Below are positions 8,180 through 64,000 of a DNA stretch of 64,000 nt, piece after piece. Numbering within the stretch: position 1 is the first letter of the stretch; the number at the start of each line of letters is the position of its first letter. A program made the translations under genes and the position numbers. Source of the DNA: an uncultured Lachnospiraceae bacterium (GTDB lineage Bacteria; Bacillota; Clostridia; Lachnospirales; Lachnospiraceae); the NCBI GenBank assembly GCA_900318375.1, contig ONKG01000007.1, positions 79,829 to 143,828 of the forward strand. Direction: 5' to 3'. Below the pieces are notes generated by a model. It saw only the letters and a list, made by a program, of their open reading frames with translations, did not search any database and was not told the origin of the DNA.

Positions 8180-10606
8180 ATGAATTGCTCAAATTGCGGC
8201 CGTCCCATCCCCGAAGGAAATCTTTTCTGCCTAAACTGCGGCGCCGGCGTTTCCGCCGGCTCCCCCGGCCCTGCTCCGGGAGGGTCGGATTATCCCCGTA
8301 TGAGTCCCTCCGGGCCTGCACCTGCACCGGCCCCTGCATATAGTTCCCGTCCCGGCTCTTTCGGAAAGATTTCCGAAGGTGTGAGGATCGTGCGCAGCCT
8401 TGCCGGCTCCGCTCAGTTTCTGGCTGCATCGATCACCTTCACCCTCTCTATTGTGCTGGGGCTGATCGTCTCCAGTACAGCATACAGTTCCACCCTCAAC
8501 CGGCTGCTGTCTTTATTGAATGAAATGGGCTTATCCGGTTCCGAGCTGTCCGAGTTGGAATCCCTGAGGGAATACGCTTATAGAATCGACTCTGCTTCCT
8601 TTGGGATCGGACTCTTGTTCAGTATCCCTGCCATACTTACTGCAGTAGGGCTGTGGATGACTTATATGGAAGGCAGAAAGACAGAAAAAAGGGACTTTTC
8701 GACAACAGGTCTTTCCATCATTCATGTCCTTGCCATTCTGGATTTCGTCGTCACCTGTATTATCTGCGCAATTATCACGCTGTTCGTACTGATCTCTGTC
8801 TTTGGGATTCTGTCTTATATGTCGTCAGATGACAGCGGAGGTGTGATCGCCGGCATATTGATCGGAGTCGCGCTGTTCGCCCTTATCATTGTACTGGTTC
8901 TGCTTTACAAATTTAAAGTATTCCAGATGGTGGGAGCCGCAAAAGAAATGGCCTTGTCCGGAAAACCGGTCCAGAAGGCATCTATGTATGTCGGCATCAT
9001 TCTGATGATCAGTGCAGTTTTCTCTCTGCCCGGCATATTCACAGGCCTTGCGACATCGATTTTTGTATCTCTGCAGTCGCTTTGCAGCATCATTTACACT
9101 GTGTGTTTCGCGCTGCTGATCTTCTCCTGCAGAAGTAAGACCGAAGATGCTCTCCTTAATCCGGGGGCAGATTATTACAGCGGATCCTCCGATCCTGAAA
9201 GGCTTTATAATGATTCACCTCGTTCAGGCGCATCGCCTGACCTGACTCCCTACGCGGAAGCTGCAGGCCGTCCCGCCTCTCCGGTTTCGCCTTACGGCGG
9301 TGCCCCCGGCGCTTCCGGAGGACGTCCCGTCCCCCCGGCTCCGCCCTATGCCGGCCGTTCCGGCGCTCCCGTCGGCCGGCCCGCTTCCCCGGCTTCGCCT
9401 TACGGCGGTGCCCCCGGTGCTCCTGCCGGCCGTCCCGTCTCCCCGGCTTCGCCTTACGGCGGCGCCCCCGGCGCTCCCGCAGGCCGTCCCACCTCCCCGG
9501 CTTCGCCTTACGGCGGTGCCCCCGGCGCTCCCGCCGGCCGTCCCGCCTCCCCGGCTTCGCCTTACGGCGGCGCCCCCGGAACTCCTGCAGGCCGTCCCGC
9601 CTCTCCGGTTTCGCCTTACGGCGGCAGCCCCGGCGCTCCCGCCGGATCGTCCCCGTCCTATCGCCCGGTTGACGTCTCGGGATTCGGTCCCGCCTCCTCT
9701 TCTTCCGGTTCAGGCGCGGATTTCTCTCCTCTTGATTTTGGTCTCTCTGACATGACCTCTTTGAATTCTGATGAAAAACAGCCGTCTTACGGACGTCCGG
9801 CAGAGGACAATTCCTTCGGATTTTCCGGCTTTTCCTCAGACAGCAGCAGTGACTACTCTATGAATTTCACTGCCTCGGGTCCTTCAGACAGGCTCAAGGG
9901 ATCCCTCCTCAATTCCCTGCAGGATGGAGGAAAGGACAGCGCACAGGAAAACAGGGAACCCGCTCCCTCCAGACTGAAAGGTTCTCTTTTACAGTCACAG
10001 GCCGATCGCGCATCGGAATCCGATTATTCCGACAGTTCATCTGCCTCCGCGGATCTCTTCTCCGATCAGGGACAGGCTGCGGATGTGCCCGGCTACCCGG
10101 ACAATAGTTTCCCTCTGCCGGAAGAAGCTGCCCCCGCGGCTGAAGAGCCCGCATACGATACACCTGCCGCAGCTCCTGCCGGACAGCCCGCCGAAGATTA
10201 TTCTCTTCCGGAACAGCTTGAGACCGTTGACAGCTCCTACAATCCAGCCACCGTATACGCAAGTCCTTACGAGACTACCTCCCTGGATGAAGCGACGCTC
10301 CGACAGCCTCATGCATACCTGTTCCGAGTGAAGGACAACACAGAATTTGCCATCAACATACCCTTTCTCCGCATAGGCAGAAGCTCCTCCCTGTCAGATT
10401 ATGTCATCGAGGACAATCCGGCAATCGGCAGGCATCACGCGGACATCGTCTGCCATGGCACTGATTTCAGCATCATAGACAATAATTCCGTCAACCATGT
10501 TTATGTAGACGGCTCCATCATACCTGCCGGGCAGGAGATTCCTCTTCCCGATCAGGCTGAGATCCGCCTCGCGGATGAAACCTTCCTCTTCAAAGTGGAG
10601 AGGTAA
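8180..10606 (+). CDS. Zinc-ribbon, multi-helix membrane protein with proline-rich repeats and C-terminal FHA domain
   Basis: The 808-residue product has four regions. Residues 1-21 form a zinc ribbon (C3, C6, C17, C20). Residues about 65-320 hold five or so membrane helices. Residues about 363-488 form a Pro/Gly/Ala-rich repeat of seven 18-residue units (GRPASPASPYGGAPGAPA type). After a long Ser-rich disordered stretch, residues about 720-808 form an FHA domain (RIGRSSSLSDYVIED, then IGRHHADI and SVNHVYVDG). FHA domains bind phosphothreonine, and a Ser/Thr kinase gene lies about 4.7 kb away. The Ser of the usual S-x-x-H motif is Gly here, which may weaken phosphopeptide binding. AAAGGAG precedes the ATG. 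I recognise the domains but not a named gene. Confidence 0.88.
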   Translation: MNCSNCGRPIPEGNLFCLNCGAGVSAGSPGPAPGGSDYPRMSPSGPAPAPAPAYSSRPGSFGKISEGVRIVRSLAGSAQFLAASITFTLSIVLGLIVSSTAYSSTLNRLLSLLNEMGLSGSELSELESLREYAYRIDSASFGIGLLFSIPAILTAVGLWMTYMEGRKTEKRDFSTTGLSIIHVLAILDFVVTCIICAIITLFVLISVFGILSYMSSDDSGGVIAGILIGVALFALIIVLVLLYKFKVFQMVGAAKEMALSGKPVQKASMYVGIILMISAVFSLPGIFTGLATSIFVSLQSLCSIIYTVCFALLIFSCRSKTEDALLNPGADYYSGSSDPERLYNDSPRSGASPDLTPYAEAAGRPASPVSPYGGAPGASGGRPVPPAPPYAGRSGAPVGRPASPASPYGGAPGAPAGRPVSPASPYGGAPGAPAGRPTSPASPYGGAPGAPAGRPASPASPYGGAPGTPAGRPASPVSPYGGSPGAPAGSSPSYRPVDVSGFGPASSSSGSGADFSPLDFGLSDMTSLNSDEKQPSYGRPAEDNSFGFSGFSSDSSSDYSMNFTASGPSDRLKGSLLNSLQDGGKDSAQENREPAPSRLKGSLLQSQADRASESDYSDSSSASADLFSDQGQAADVPGYPDNSFPLPEEAAPAAEEPAYDTPAAAPAGQPAEDYSLPEQLETVDSSYNPATVYASPYETTSLDEATLRQPHAYLFRVKDNTEFAINIPFLRIGRSSSLSDYVIEDNPAIGRHHADIVCHGTDFSIIDNNSVNHVYVDGSIIPAGQEIPLPDQAEIRLADETFLFKVER
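9266..9643 (+). repeat. 54-bp coding tandem repeat (7 units) in the FHA protein
   Basis: Seven in-frame 54-bp units encode 18-residue proline-rich repeats. The first, second and last units are the most diverged. The array is GC-rich and prone to copy-number change, and is probably an extended flexible linker between the membrane domain and the FHA domain. Confidence 0.9.
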
Positions 10607-22294: not shown

Positions 22295-22357
22295 TCACAT
22301 ACTCTCTTATACAATCTGTTCCGTGCGCGGAAGCAGGGCAGAGGAAGCCCTGCGAAC

Positions 22358-22466
22358 AGGGTAAAGGCGGCAATATGGACTGCTTTGCAGTTCATATGCG
22401 CCCCCTGCCCCGACCTGTCCGTGTCCGCCGAAAACCGGAAAAATACATTACACGGGACATATCATG
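22358..22466 (+). repeat. Pre-terminator two-hairpin repeat, copy A
   Basis: One of four related intergenic repeats. It lies 63 nt past the DUF898 stop, in the gene's orientation, and joins directly to a terminator. Hairpin 1 pairs the arms around ACTGCTTTGCAGT. Hairpin 2 pairs TGTCC-GTGT with ACAC-G-GGACA around an inner CCG/CGG stem. The junction to the terminator reads ATCATGATAAAAAAG. Confidence 0.85.
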
Positions 22467-22475
22467 ATAAAAAAG

Positions 22476-22526
22476 AAGCAGCTCCTGCACCGGGTAAATA
22501 CCGCCGGCAGGCAGCTGCTTTTTTAT
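22476..22526. terminator. Bidirectional terminator between the DUF898 gene and thiD
   Basis: AAGCAGCTCCTGC pairs with GCAGG-C-AGCTGCTT (one bulged base), followed by TTTTTT on the plus strand. The A-run to the left acts as the T-run on the minus strand. Confidence 0.85.
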
Positions 22527-22589: not shown

Positions 22590-23387
22590 TCACTGAAGGA
22601 ACTCTCCCTCGATCGCAAAGGCATGATTCATGGGGCCTCTTCCCTTTCCCAGATCCAGCATGGCAGCCAGAGCGCCGGAAATATAGTTCTTGGCACTCTT
22701 TACTGCAGTCGGAAGATCATATCCCTTGGCCAGGCCGGATGCGATCGCGCTTGAAAGCGTACAGCCGGTCCCGTGGGTATTGGGATTGTCGATCCTCTTC
22801 CCCCTGAACCAGATCAATTCCTTTCCATCATATAGAAGATCGTTAGCGTCGTTGATACTGTGGCCGCCCTTGCAGAGAACGCCGCAGCCGTACATCTCAT
22901 AGATTTCCTTTGCGACAGCTTCCATATCCTCACTGGTGCGCACGGTGCGTCCCGAGAGCACTTCCGCCTCCGGAATATTGGGTGTGATCACCGCGGCGAT
23001 GGGAAGAAGTTCCTTTTTCAAAGTCTCAATGGCATCTTCGCTGATCAGTCTGGCTCCGCTGGTGGCGACCATGACCGGATCAACGACAATATTTTCCGCT
23101 CCGTAAAAGCGGAGCCTCTCCGCGATCACCTCGATGAGGGCAGAAGATGAAACCATTCCTGTTTTCACTGCATCCGGACGGATATCCGTGAAAATACAAT
23201 CCAGCTGCTCCTTCAGAAAGTCAGGAGTAACTTCCATAATACCTGTTACGCCGGTCGTATTCTGCGCAGTCAGGGCAGTGATCGCGCTCATGGCATAGAC
23301 TCCGTTCGCGGTCATTGTCTTGATATCTGCCTGGATGCCGGCGCCTCCGCTGGAATCACTTCCGGCGATCGTTAATGCAGTCCTCAT
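22590..23387 (-). CDS. thiD: Hydroxymethylpyrimidine/phosphomethylpyrimidine kinase
   Basis: The 265-residue protein phosphorylates hydroxymethylpyrimidine and its monophosphate in thiamine synthesis. Ribokinase-fold motifs are visible: N-terminal ALTIAGSDSSGGAGIQAD, the VKTGMV strand, DPVMVATSG, TPNIPEAE and the C-terminal anion-hole/ATP motif THGTGCTLSSAIA with the catalytic Asp position replaced in the usual GTGC style of ThiD. Length is normal for the family. GGAAGGAGA precedes the ATG. No other thi biosynthetic genes lie beside it and I see no TPP riboswitch in the leader. It may serve pyrimidine or pyridoxal salvage, since some members (PdxK-like ThiD) also act on pyridoxal. Two direct repeats (TGTCAGAACTTCATGTC) lie just past the stop. 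Confidence 0.93.
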   Translation of the reverse strand: MRTALTIAGSDSSGGAGIQADIKTMTANGVYAMSAITALTAQNTTGVTGIMEVTPDFLKEQLDCIFTDIRPDAVKTGMVSSSALIEVIAERLRFYGAENIVVDPVMVATSGARLISEDAIETLKKELLPIAAVITPNIPEAEVLSGRTVRTSEDMEAVAKEIYEMYGCGVLCKGGHSINDANDLLYDGKELIWFRGKRIDNPNTHGTGCTLSSAIASGLAKGYDLPTAVKSAKNYISGALAAMLDLGKGRGPMNHAFAIEGEFLQ

Positions 23388-23439: not shown

Positions 23440-23480
23440 AGCGGCAGAAGGTGGTGCCCCCGATCTGCCGCTTTTTTTGA
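23440..23480. terminator. Hairpin upstream of thiD, terminator-like on the plus strand
   Basis: AGCGGCAG (23440-23447) pairs with CTGCCGCT (23465-23472), followed by TTTTTTT on the plus strand. On the minus strand the hairpin follows repeat copy B, but the trailing sequence is ATAAAAAATT rather than a T-run, so termination of the PNPOx transcript is uncertain. Confidence 0.55.
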
Positions 23481-23587
23481 CACAGCCCGTGTAACGTGAT
23501 TTTCCGCCTTACGGCAGATACGGGCCGGTCGGAGCAGAGAACGCATATGAACTGCAAAGCAGTTCATATTGCCGCCTCTGCCCTATT
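23476..23587 (-). repeat. Pre-terminator two-hairpin repeat, copy B
   Basis: Reading on the minus strand it begins TAGGGCAGAGGCGGCAATAT and ends ACACGGGCTGTGTCAAAAAA, directly before the hairpin at 23440. It follows the PNPOx-like gene by about 40 nt in that gene's orientation. The AACTGCTTTGCAGTT hairpin and the GCCGTAAGGC inner stem are intact. Confidence 0.87.
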
Positions 23588-28295: not shown

Positions 28296-28820
28296 GTGAT
28301 CTTCTGACCGCCGCGCCCTCCGGTCGCTTTGCTCCTTCTTCCGCAGTGGTGATCTTTTTCTTTTTAAGCGTCTCCGTCGCTTCGCTTTTGAAAACCAGTG
28401 GTGACCTTCTGACCGCCGCGCCCTCCGGTCGCTTCGCTCCTTCTCCCTCAGTGGTGATCTTTTTCTATTAAGACATCTCCGTCGCTTCGCTTTTGAAAAA
28501 CATTGGTGACCTTCTGACCGCCGCGCCCTCCGGTCGCTTTGCCCCTTCTCCCGCAGTGGTGATCTTTTTCCATTGAAGCGCCTCCGTCGCTTCGCTTTTG
28601 AAAATCAGTGGTGACCTTCTGACCGCCGCGCTCTCCGGTCGCTTTGCTCCTTCTCCCGCGGTGGTGATCTTTTTCTTTTTAAGCGTCTCCGTCGCTTCGC
28701 TTTTGAAAATCAGTGGTGACCTTCTGACCGCCGCGACCTCCGGTCGCTTCGTTCCTTCTCCCGCAGTGGTGCTCTTTTTCTTTTTATGTGCCTCTGTCGC
28801 TTCTTTTCTTCCCCAACAAA
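28296..28820. repeat. 105-bp tandem repeat, five copies
   Basis: Units starting GTGAYCTTCTGACCGCCGCG occur at 28296, 28401, 28506, 28611 and 28716, exactly 105 bp apart. Differences are single bases scattered along the unit. A plus-strand frame is open through several units (105 is a multiple of 3) but copies 2 and 3 carry stops, so it is probably not coding. The unit itself contains two near-inverted blocks, GGTCGCTTTGCTCC and TCCGTCGCTTCGCTT. Confidence 0.95.
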
Positions 28821-37318: not shown

Positions 37319-37431
37319 TAGGGTAGAGTCGGCAATATGAACTGCTTTGCAGTTCATATGCTCCCTCTGCCCACGACCGGCCCGTGTCCGCCGTAAGGCG
37401 GAAAAATACATTACACAGGCCGTGTCATAAA
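37319..37431 (+). repeat. Pre-terminator two-hairpin repeat, copy C
   Basis: The copy begins AGGGTAGAGTCGGCAATATG 26 nt past the proA stop and ends ACACAGGCCGTGTCATAA directly at the terminator's A-run. The AACTGCTTTGCAGTT hairpin and the CCGCCGTAAGGCGG stem are perfect. Confidence 0.9.
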
Positions 37432-37467
37432 AAAATGGTCACACCTGATCAGGTGTGGCCATTTTGT
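37432..37467. terminator. Bidirectional terminator between proA and the CotH gene
   Basis: AAAATGGTCACACCTGA (37432-37448) pairs with TCAGGTGTGGCCATTTT (37449-37465), one G-U pair, with A-run and T-run at either end. Confidence 0.93.
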
Positions 37468-39963: not shown

Positions 39964-40264
39964 CTCTTTCCGACCATGCCGCTTGCAAGAGCGGCAGCGC
40001 GAGGAGAAAGCCCGGAAAGGGTTTCTCCGATGCGCTCACAGGATGTTTGCGGCGCTCCGACGCATACATCCGGAGTGAAAAATATTGCATCGGCAATATT
40101 TTTCGCTCTTTCCGACATGTCGAAGCGCTCCTGCGCTGAGACACCCCGAGGAGAAATTCGTGAAGACGATTTCTCCGATGGGATCACAGGATGTTTGCGG
40201 CGCTCCGTCGCAAACATCCGGAGTGAAAAATATTGCATCGGCAAGATTTTTCACTCTTTCGAAC
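39964..40264 (-). repeat. Tandem pair of structured repeats, family 2
   Basis: Two units of 142 and 148 nt start CTCTTTCCGAC at 39964 and 40106 (plus strand), with a third partial start at 40254. Each contains a TCACAGGATG block, a hairpin around GATGTTTGCG/CGCAAACATC and the CATCCGGAGTGAAAAATATT block. Each ends with a terminator-like stem: GAAAAATATTGC (40077-40088) pairs perfectly with 40093-40104 in unit 1. The pair lies directly after the stop of the zinc-ribbon gene at 40275, read on the minus strand. Confidence 0.88.
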
Positions 40265-40274
40265 ATGCCGGAAT

Positions 40275-58681: not shown

Positions 58682-58729
58682 GTCACAGGATACCTGCGCC
58701 GCCCGGCGGTAAAATCATCCGGAGTGAAA
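58682..58729 (-). repeat. Short diverged copy of the family 2 repeat
   Basis: Shares the TCACAGGATACCTG block and AAAATCATCCGGAGTGAAA with the copy at 63686. It lies just past the DUF1292 stop, in the same orientation relative to the gene. Confidence 0.7.
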
Positions 58730-61782: not shown

Positions 61783-61811
61783 TTGACTTTTATCAACTCA
61801 GATTTTATATT
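61783..61811 (+). promoter_or_regulatory. Promoter for the HPr-like gene
   Basis: TTGACT at 61783-61788, a 17-nt spacer and TATATT at 61806-61811. About 140 nt lies between the predicted start site and the HPr-like start codon. Confidence 0.7.
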
Positions 61812-61953
61812 TTTTTATGGAACAGGCGTTTCCAGACGATCCTATCCTTCTTCGGACAGTCAGTCCGCCCGGAAAGGGGATCCGTCTGATGCATTACAAG
61901 TATCTCCTCGAACAGGTGCCGTGCACCGGAAAGGAAAAGGGTTAATCAATCAT

Positions 61954-62187
61954 ATGAAAACAGTATCTATCTCTTTGAATTCCATCGACAAGGTCAAATC
62001 TTTTGTGAATGACCTCACTAAATTTGATGATGATTTTGATCTCGTCTCCGGACGTTATGTTATCGACGCAAAGTCGATCATGGGTATCTTCTCTCTGGAT
62101 CTTTCCCGTCCGATCAATCTGAACATTCACGCTACTGAAAACCTTGACAAGATCCTGGAGGTTCTCGATCCCTATATCATCAAATAA
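61954..62187 (+). CDS. HPr-like protein lacking the active-site histidine
   Basis: The 77-residue product has the HPr-fold strand pattern and the Ser46 region (VIDAKSIMGIFSLDL, matching K-S-I-M-G-x-x-x-L). The N-terminal loop that carries the phosphorylatable His15 (GLHARPA type) reads SLNSIDKVKSF instead, with no His. A phosphotransfer role is therefore unlikely. A regulatory role like that of Crh, which also lacks His15 and uses Ser46, is plausible (inference). The start at 61954 has AAGGAAAAGG at 12 nt. It is divergent from mtaB and convergent with thiI. Confidence 0.86.
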   Translation: MKTVSISLNSIDKVKSFVNDLTKFDDDFDLVSGRYVIDAKSIMGIFSLDLSRPINLNIHATENLDKILEVLDPYIIK

Positions 62188-62312: not shown

Positions 62313-62348
62313 GCGCGTGTGCCGGCATTCCCGGTACACGCGCTTTTT
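62313..62348. terminator. Bidirectional terminator between the HPr-like gene and thiI
   Basis: GCGCGTGTGCCGG (62313-62325) pairs with CCGGTACACGCGC (62331-62343), one G-U pair, followed by TTTTTC on the plus strand. On the minus strand it directly follows repeat copy D and carries an AGTTTTTC tail. Confidence 0.9.
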
Positions 62349-62440
62349 CATGACACAGCGGGTGTAATGAATTGCCCTTCTTACGACGGACTCGCGCCGG
62401 CCGGGATGGCCAGAGGGCGGCGGCGCTGTCTCTGCCTTAT
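62349..62440 (-). repeat. Pre-terminator two-hairpin repeat, copy D (diverged)
   Basis: Read on the minus strand it begins ATAAGGCAGAGACAGCG at the thiI stop and ends ATTACACCCGCTGTGTCATG directly before the terminator. The GTCGTAAG loop region and the CATTACAC...GTGTCATGA end match the other copies. The first hairpin has been replaced by a different GC-rich stem. Confidence 0.75.
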
Positions 62441-63685: not shown

Positions 63686-63883
63686 CTCTTTCAAACATGT
63701 CGAAGCGTTCTGCTCTGAGACACTCCGGAAGAATGCCCGCAGTATAAAAGACGGACCATTCATGTCATCGATTATTCCGATGCAATCACAGGATACCTGG
63801 CCATCCCGCGGCTAAATCCTCCGGCCGTCCGCGGCAAAATCATCCGGAGTGAAAAAGATTGCATCGGCACTATTTTTTGCCCT
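63686..63883 (-). repeat. Structured repeat, family 2, long copy
   Basis: Shares CTCTTTC..ACATGTCGAAGCG, CTGAGACAC, TCCGATG.AATCACAGGAT and CATCCGGAGTGAAAAA.ATTGCATCGGCA blocks with the pair at 39964-40264. It is longer (about 198 nt) because of an insertion containing a TCATCGATTATTCC segment. It lies in the thiI upstream region. Confidence 0.85.
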
Positions 63884-64000
63884 TATTTTCTCACAAATTT
63901 CGGCGCTTCTGTAGCTTGGGTGGGTAAGTAAGCGCTGAATCTTGCCCACCAGTAAAGTTGTGGTTACGGTACGCCGCCCTTGCGTGAACCTCAGATGGAT
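63884..64000. other. Window end, no gene recognised
   Basis: The last 117 nt contain no open frame with a family signature and no clear RNA hairpin apart from TGGTGGGTAAGTAAGCG-like repeats of GGGTAAG. It may belong to a gene or repeat beyond the window. Confidence 0.4.

Follow-up and report, generated by a model that had tools for sequence, protein, structure and literature searches.

Bacterial genomes contain many terminators, which look like harmless places for insertion, and to our knowledge few elements use them as such. Group IIC introns carry a ribozyme, in most cases together with a reverse transcriptase, while members of the IS200/IS605 family have hairpin ends, make no target duplication and include gene-less derivatives; in IS608 guide and cleavage sequences pair. 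According to one account (PMC8919778), the insertion sites of group IIC (bacterial class C) introns lie immediately past rho-independent terminators, and coding sequence is spared. Pairing with the target is described for IS608 (PMC5934647), and REP and REPIN sequences are presented as intergenic palindromic repeats which form populations (PMC8049555). BOX, RUP and SPRITE of Streptococcus pneumoniae are described as small structured repeats that cluster, SPRITE being terminator-like (PMC10969869). No description of the element reported here was found in the PMC papers searched, which is not proof of its absence in print.

The window, that is, the whole stretch of DNA analysed here, comprises 64,000 nucleotides of the genome of an uncultured Lachnospiraceae bacterium (G000, a metagenome-assembled genome of 3.93 Mb in 193 contigs, 82% complete). 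A sequence-only reading of the window had placed four related elements near 22358, 23476, 37319 and 62349, each directly after a stop codon and before a hairpin in the sense of the gene followed, and had proposed a 3'UTR role for them. All four are present (copies A to D, Table 1), as are the two stems described for three of them, and the junction to the hairpin does read GTGTCA-(T)-A-run. In copies A to C stem 1 has GGGYARAGG..CCCTCTGCCC-type arms around a AACTGCTTTGCAGTT palindrome, and stem 2 a GGCCCGTGT/ACACGGGCC-type arm around CCGCC-GTAA-GGCGG, which is worn in copy A. Copy D, which is short and decayed, folds differently from the other three.

Table 1. Features of the window associated with the repeat; ends of copies A-D are uncertain by 2-3 nt.
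Feature	Position	Strand	Remarks
Copy A, long form, two hairpins	22357..22464	+	R1 match 22358-22469, 65.7 bits; fold -41.2 kcal/mol (22357-22466)
Copy B, long form	23478..23585	-	R1 match 23472-23584, 72.6 bits; fold -58.2
Copy C, long form, the best-preserved of the four	37319..37427	+	R1 match 37320-37433, 85.6 bits; fold -61.2
Copy D, short decayed form	62351..62439	-	R1 match 62345-62437, 57.6 bits
Bidirectional terminator hairpin adjoining copy A	22476..22520	both	Imperfect stem; fails terminator script; read by eye
thiD	22590-23387	minus	PF08543
Target hairpin of copy B, upstream of thiD	23441..23471	+	By eye; fails terminator script
Terminator hairpin adjoining copy C, between Aldedh/proA-like gene (plus) and CotH gene (minus)	37434..37463
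Terminator adjoining copy D, after ORF 61783-62187	62313..62343	+	T-run 62344-62348
Probable remnant of a sister-subfamily copy, tandem before copy A	22335..22356	+	Read from the sequence

The names given to the upstream genes fit the Pfam results: DUF898 (PF05987), PNPOx_N (PF01243) and ThiI (PF02568) precede copies A, B and D, and the gene upstream of copy C specifies an Aldedh-family protein of 436 aa which, like the earlier reading, we take to be proA. While all four copies follow a stop codon, they do not do so directly, the gap being 62 nt for copy A, 39 nt for copy B and 25 nt for copy C; copy D overlaps the stop codon of thiI, whose TAA is contributed in G000 by the initial bases of the insert. 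Three of the four copies are located between convergent genes: copy A between DUF898 and thiD, copy C between the proA-like and CotH genes, and copy D between thiI and ORF 61783-62187, which is without a Pfam match. At copy A the A-run (22469-22474) is a U-tract on the minus strand, which is the strand of thiD. The genes on both sides of copy B are on the minus strand, and the T-run of the hairpin adjoining this copy (23472-23478) is found on the plus strand only. The hairpin noted behind each element turned out, as an adjoining terminator, to be the key feature of the family, but that of copy B is at no gene end; it is situated upstream of the thiD start and is kept in relatives. The core of this thiD-upstream hairpin, GTGGTGCCCCC, was present at 7/7 of the relatives' loci examined, with stems that vary, and it may be a conserved leader element. 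The short stretch before copy A is probably what a deletion has left of a tandem sister-subfamily copy, and a similar remnant precedes the copy at L003.

With copy C as the blastn query 59 matches were found in G000, a part of which are hits of its palindromes on the reverse strand. The sequence-only model R1, constructed from 33 copies, gave at least 89 matches there at E<=0.01, with scores computed for 150 of 1278 candidates. The repeat family is real and far beyond chance, and the many copies which the earlier reading expected of a model search are there. The short form measures ~90 nt and the long form ~110 nt. The consensus of the former is approximately YAGGGYAGAGGCGGCnnTGCCGCCCTCTGCCC-CCGACC-GGCCCGTGTCCGCCGTAAGGCGGAAAAATACATTACACGGGCCGTGTCA; TAAAAAA comes next, and after it a hairpin which in most copies is a different one. 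Hairpin 1 of the long form contains AATATGAACTGCTTTGCAGTTCATATG. Tandem copies occur at 6 places in the genome.

Several other repeats were encountered. A sister subfamily within G000 (L013 525-637, L014 1398-1492, L083, L084, L096, L097 and L098) possesses another outer stem, of the GGGCTGCCGT/ACGGCAGCCC type, and the end CTGCGATAAAA, and is nearer to some of the types found in other genera. Near-identical terminator hairpins (GAGTCTCGC..GCGAGACTC) follow the copies at L002, L007, L026, L041 and L105; at L002, L007 and L105 they are extended by a common stretch, CAGCGACATAATTCCTTGCG, another dispersed family. Within the window a second repeat family, TCACAGGAT...CATCCGGAGTGAAAAA-hairpin-TTTTTCACTCTT, is located at 40022-40122, 40170-40270, 58683-58729 and 63786-63884, and a motif related to it is found near L015 and after the terminator of C80:2515. 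The window also contains tandem arrays at 9261-9653 and 28296-28803, with units of 54 nt and 105 nt.

For the analysis of gene context 85 of the 89 R1 matches were used, the four weakest (E>0.001) being left out; genes were called by a dicodon script of our own and not by a standard gene finder, and calls are missing near contig ends. The upstream neighbour is in the sense of the element and stops before it in 38 copies, is antisense and starts there in 46, and is uncalled in 1 (p=0.45 against one half). The downstream neighbour, in contrast, was called in 78 copies, and in 66 of these it is an antisense gene whose end points to the element (p=3e-10). An opposite-strand intrinsic terminator was recognised by script at the 3' edge of the element in 58/85 copies, and in 54 of these 58 the end of the stem falls within -2 to +5 nt of that edge; the mirrored left side gave 1/85, and of up to 600 positions drawn at random from the same intergenic regions 18 were positive. 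The script was failed by 27/85 copies, including window copies A and B. Several of the failures are outer tandem members, truncated matches or imperfect hairpins, though not every one is explained; the hairpins of copies A and B are imperfect, yet in both the hairpin and T-run are plain by eye. On C94 (L084) two copies face each other across a single terminator, each with its 3' end towards it. On the sense strand a T-run follows the hairpin in 23/38 copies behind a stop versus 9/46 behind a start. Based upon these counts of neighbours, terminators and T-runs, the element marks the downstream edge of a terminator of the opposite strand. The rule that it lies in the sense of the gene followed is owed to the window, in which three of the four copies have convergent genes on their two sides, and the T-run split fits bidirectional terminators of such genes making the window look sense-specific.

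Presence and absence between species was observed at four loci. Copy B is absent at the collinear loci of G008 and G014, where the hairpin is kept, and copy D is absent from G008, G011 and G014, where the terminator is kept; in the orientation of the element the empty site of G014 for copy D reads GCGA^TAAAAAAACGCG. The site C80:2515 is filled in G000 and the copy is lacking in G011 and G008 (left anchor >=98% identical in both) and in G061, G018 and G028, while G010 has at the same place a copy with another stem (GGCAAGTG/CACTTGCC), which either was inserted independently or has diverged from the same insertion. At the thi locus there is a tandem pair in G010 and none in G018, the left flank being alignable over ~7 nt only. 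No target duplication was seen at the four filled and empty loci, with an ambiguity of 1-3 nt in which a very short one could hide, since AAY is nearly constant before the element. The empty sites would be ones that were never invaded, although absence in relatives of ~80-98% identity could in principle reflect deletion.

R1 matches were found in 8/60 relatives, all 8 among the 36 belonging to the same genus, with 1-70 per genome as lower bounds (69 candidates scored per genome). In a sample of the family containing one genome per genus this model gave one other hit, a weak one in G257 (14 candidates scored per genome). An identical 92-nt stretch occurs in G068 at four unrelated loci with unlike flanks (L318, L320, L321 and L323), a sign of recent spread. 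Searches of phages, plasmids and viral contigs with one 29-base pattern and one 117-base query gave no match.

RNAalifold returned no consensus pair for a first alignment of 33 copies, which we ascribe to decay and misalignment, and for that reason 22 copies, chosen and for the most part intact, were given a structure by hand. In an unselected test, all 122 R1 matches (118 of them distinct), in an alignment made from sequence only, displayed both-sided change in 22/27 pairs versus 16.6 in shuffled alignments (4/500 reach this), and 92 double-changed cells versus 39.8 (0/500). The compensatory changes that the earlier reading had sought as support are thus present. The hand-set structure and the 22 copies gave a structured model (R2), which was run on 299 genomes representing 298 Lachnospiraceae genera; 15/297 other genera match at E<=5.4e-5 and 9 more do so weakly, only the 15 being counted here, and the numbers of matches in this family-wide search are lower bounds (14 candidates scored per genome). 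With 150 candidates scored, G194 gave at least 19 R2 matches, the most per genome in that search. Copies from other genera are much diverged in sequence but keep the same order of parts, as in AATCGAGTAGGG...CCCTACTCGC-CGCGC-GGGCCGCGT-TCGGC-GTAA-GCCGA-..TTTCCTTACGCGGCCC-TGTGCATAAAAAA.

The terminator is found there also. Of 28 loci scanned, six were left out of this analysis, namely L281 (contig end), L285 and L287-L290, as were loci repeating others; L285 and L287-L290 look false by eye and are without such a terminator. In 50 of the 51 rows (one duplicate flank was dropped) the opposite-strand terminator follows in 41/50 copies, or 41/55 if the five weak hits excluded beforehand are counted, as against 0/50 on the left side and 8/500 at random positions of the loci. 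The 49 distinct rows display both-sided changes in 27/27 pairs, with 300 cells versus 85 in shuffled alignments, and slid structures score no more than 0.089 versus 0.556 for the set structure, in an alignment which was itself fitted to the structure and so is biased towards it. At the foot of hairpin 2 the 5' nucleotides can pair with those after it (GCGC/GTGC, CGC/GCG, GAC/GTC); this amounts to at least 3 bp in 31/34 distinct cases from other genera and 51/73 of the own-genus set, the excess over shuffles being small (mean 4.21 versus 3.96; 7 and 14 of 1000 shuffles reach it). With the foot able to pair with the 3' end in this way, the element consists of two abutting hairpins whose bases form its ends. 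At the element itself Rfam gave no match at gathering score in the window, in the L010 and L321 stretches or in 17 loci of other genera. Outside it one tRNA was found in the window and one SRP RNA and one tRNA in the 17 loci, and the L010 and L321 stretches had only weak matches below the cut-offs.

These repeats are very probably small non-autonomous mobile elements of ~90 or ~110 nt which target terminators with fixed polarity. A putative enzyme acting in trans would insert the element precisely at an RA^T-like site, at the margin of an intrinsic terminator's A/T tract. The element would have its hairpin-2 end turned towards the terminator, which would place it just downstream of the terminator of the opposite-strand gene. 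Insertion would proceed without target duplication and leave the terminator its U-tract. Presumably the hairpins of the element are recognised as folded single strands, and the terminator hairpin, together with its T-tract, may itself be part of the recognised target; the site past a terminator, where little lies, would serve as a safe haven.

That the repeats might instead be cis-acting 3'UTR elements, contributing to stability, processing or support of the terminator and lying in sense to the gene followed, was suggested by the window itself, where 4/4 copies follow a stop in sense, and it accords with stems kept by compensatory change. Over the genome, however, only 38/84 copies lie in sense behind a stop codon and 46/84 are antisense behind a gene start, a result which largely refutes such a role; presence and absence between species, tandem copies and the patchy spread also speak against it. 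Orientation to the gene followed is random over the 85 copies, an outcome which the earlier reading had itself named as contrary to its proposal, and on this ground we reject a 3'UTR function, which now seems very unlikely; transposase-like target duplications, which it had also named, were not seen. Even less credible is a classical MITE moved by a DDE transposase: the repeats are short, gene-less, multi-copy and intergenic as such an element would be, but the ends YAGGG.. and ..GTGTCA are not paired with each other, the folds pair within each hairpin, and the four compared loci are without target duplication.

As to what moves the element, neither an autonomous copy nor a mobilising enzyme was found among PF01797 and PF08388 matches in carriers or at Y1 loci. 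A narrower form of the mobile-element reading assigns it to a Y1 HUH transposase (IS200/IS605 TnpA or RAYT), with single-strand excision and insertion beside a short target and no duplication. Both ends of the element are hairpins, no target duplication was seen, and the pairing between the hairpin 2 foot and the 3' end resembles the guide and cleavage pairing of IS608. Further, PF01797 is present in 9/9 same-genus carriers versus 17/28 genomes without R1 matches (Fisher p=0.036), which mildly favours the idea, and RAYT-like genes occur in G068 and G361, both of which have near-identical copies. PF01797 is, however, found in only 7/15 other-genus carriers, was not found in G194 in spite of its many copies, and is partial in all four of its matches in G000. 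Nor is there an element at 19 Y1 loci searched with R2 or 30 searched with R1, and by eye the RAYT genes of G068 and G361, as at the loci L301 and L315, are flanked by another kind of palindrome. Given the other-genus carriers, the Y1 loci and these other palindromes, a Y1 or RAYT protein is unproven as the cognate enzyme; a hairpin-binding, single-strand transposase of the HUH type is still the likeliest class, as a choice little better than a guess. At L301 and L315 the RAYT-like genes lie between long GGGGACGG/CCGTCCCC-type palindromes, apparently their own REP-like repeats. Retromobility, whether by priming of an element RNA with the terminus ...AUAAAA on the 3' end of the terminator T-tract or by group IIC intron machinery borrowed in trans, appears improbable. 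The A-run junction would suit T-tract priming, and the position immediately behind a rho-independent terminator is where group IIC introns insert according to the account cited (PMC8919778), but the A-run is already present in empty sites. The PF08388 maturase, searched for in carriers only, was found in 8/23 and is absent from G000, G010 and G194, and domain V could not be recognised in the element by eye. Truncation at the 5' end, as a sign of target-primed reverse transcription, was looked for among the R1 matches of G000 and set aside, there being no bias (12 matches without the 5' part versus 11 without the 3' part), although as local match lengths these are weak evidence.

We may tentatively suggest, as a rather doubtful possibility, that the terminator-targeting element represents a new, family-wide mobile class, composed of two abutting hairpins of near-free sequence, with a terminator attachment site read by its shape (hairpin and T-tract) and an enzyme which is neither Y1/HUH, group II maturase nor DDE. 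An element defined by structure, tolerant in sequence and of fixed terminator polarity across many genera of the Lachnospiraceae would represent a further way of inserting safely. In genomes without annotation it could serve to locate terminators, and it may also lead to a recombinase which recognises hairpins. There is also a warning here, in that repeats beside terminators can mimic 3'UTR regulators when it is mainly convergent genes that are seen.

Compared with the systems described above, the element resembles group IIC introns in lying directly after a terminator with fixed polarity, which holds in its own and in other genera; unlike them it is only ~90-110 nt long, has no recognised intron core or Rfam match, and has PF08388 in no more than a part of its carriers. 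It shares with IS200/IS605 the hairpins at both ends and the lack of duplication, but no TnpA with matching ends was found, the target is a hairpin plus T-tract, and hairpin 1 lies at the very end. REP and REPIN sequences are likewise intergenic palindromic repeats, whereas this element consists of two unlike hairpins in fixed order and does not stand beside the Y1/RAYT loci examined, where other palindromes flank RAYT. Unlike BOX, RUP and SPRITE it carries no terminator of its own and adjoins a different one in most copies, and unlike a DDE-type MITE it has neither terminal inverted repeats nor a target duplication. Among known systems it is best placed as a small non-autonomous mobile repeat, possibly moved by a new class of enzyme.
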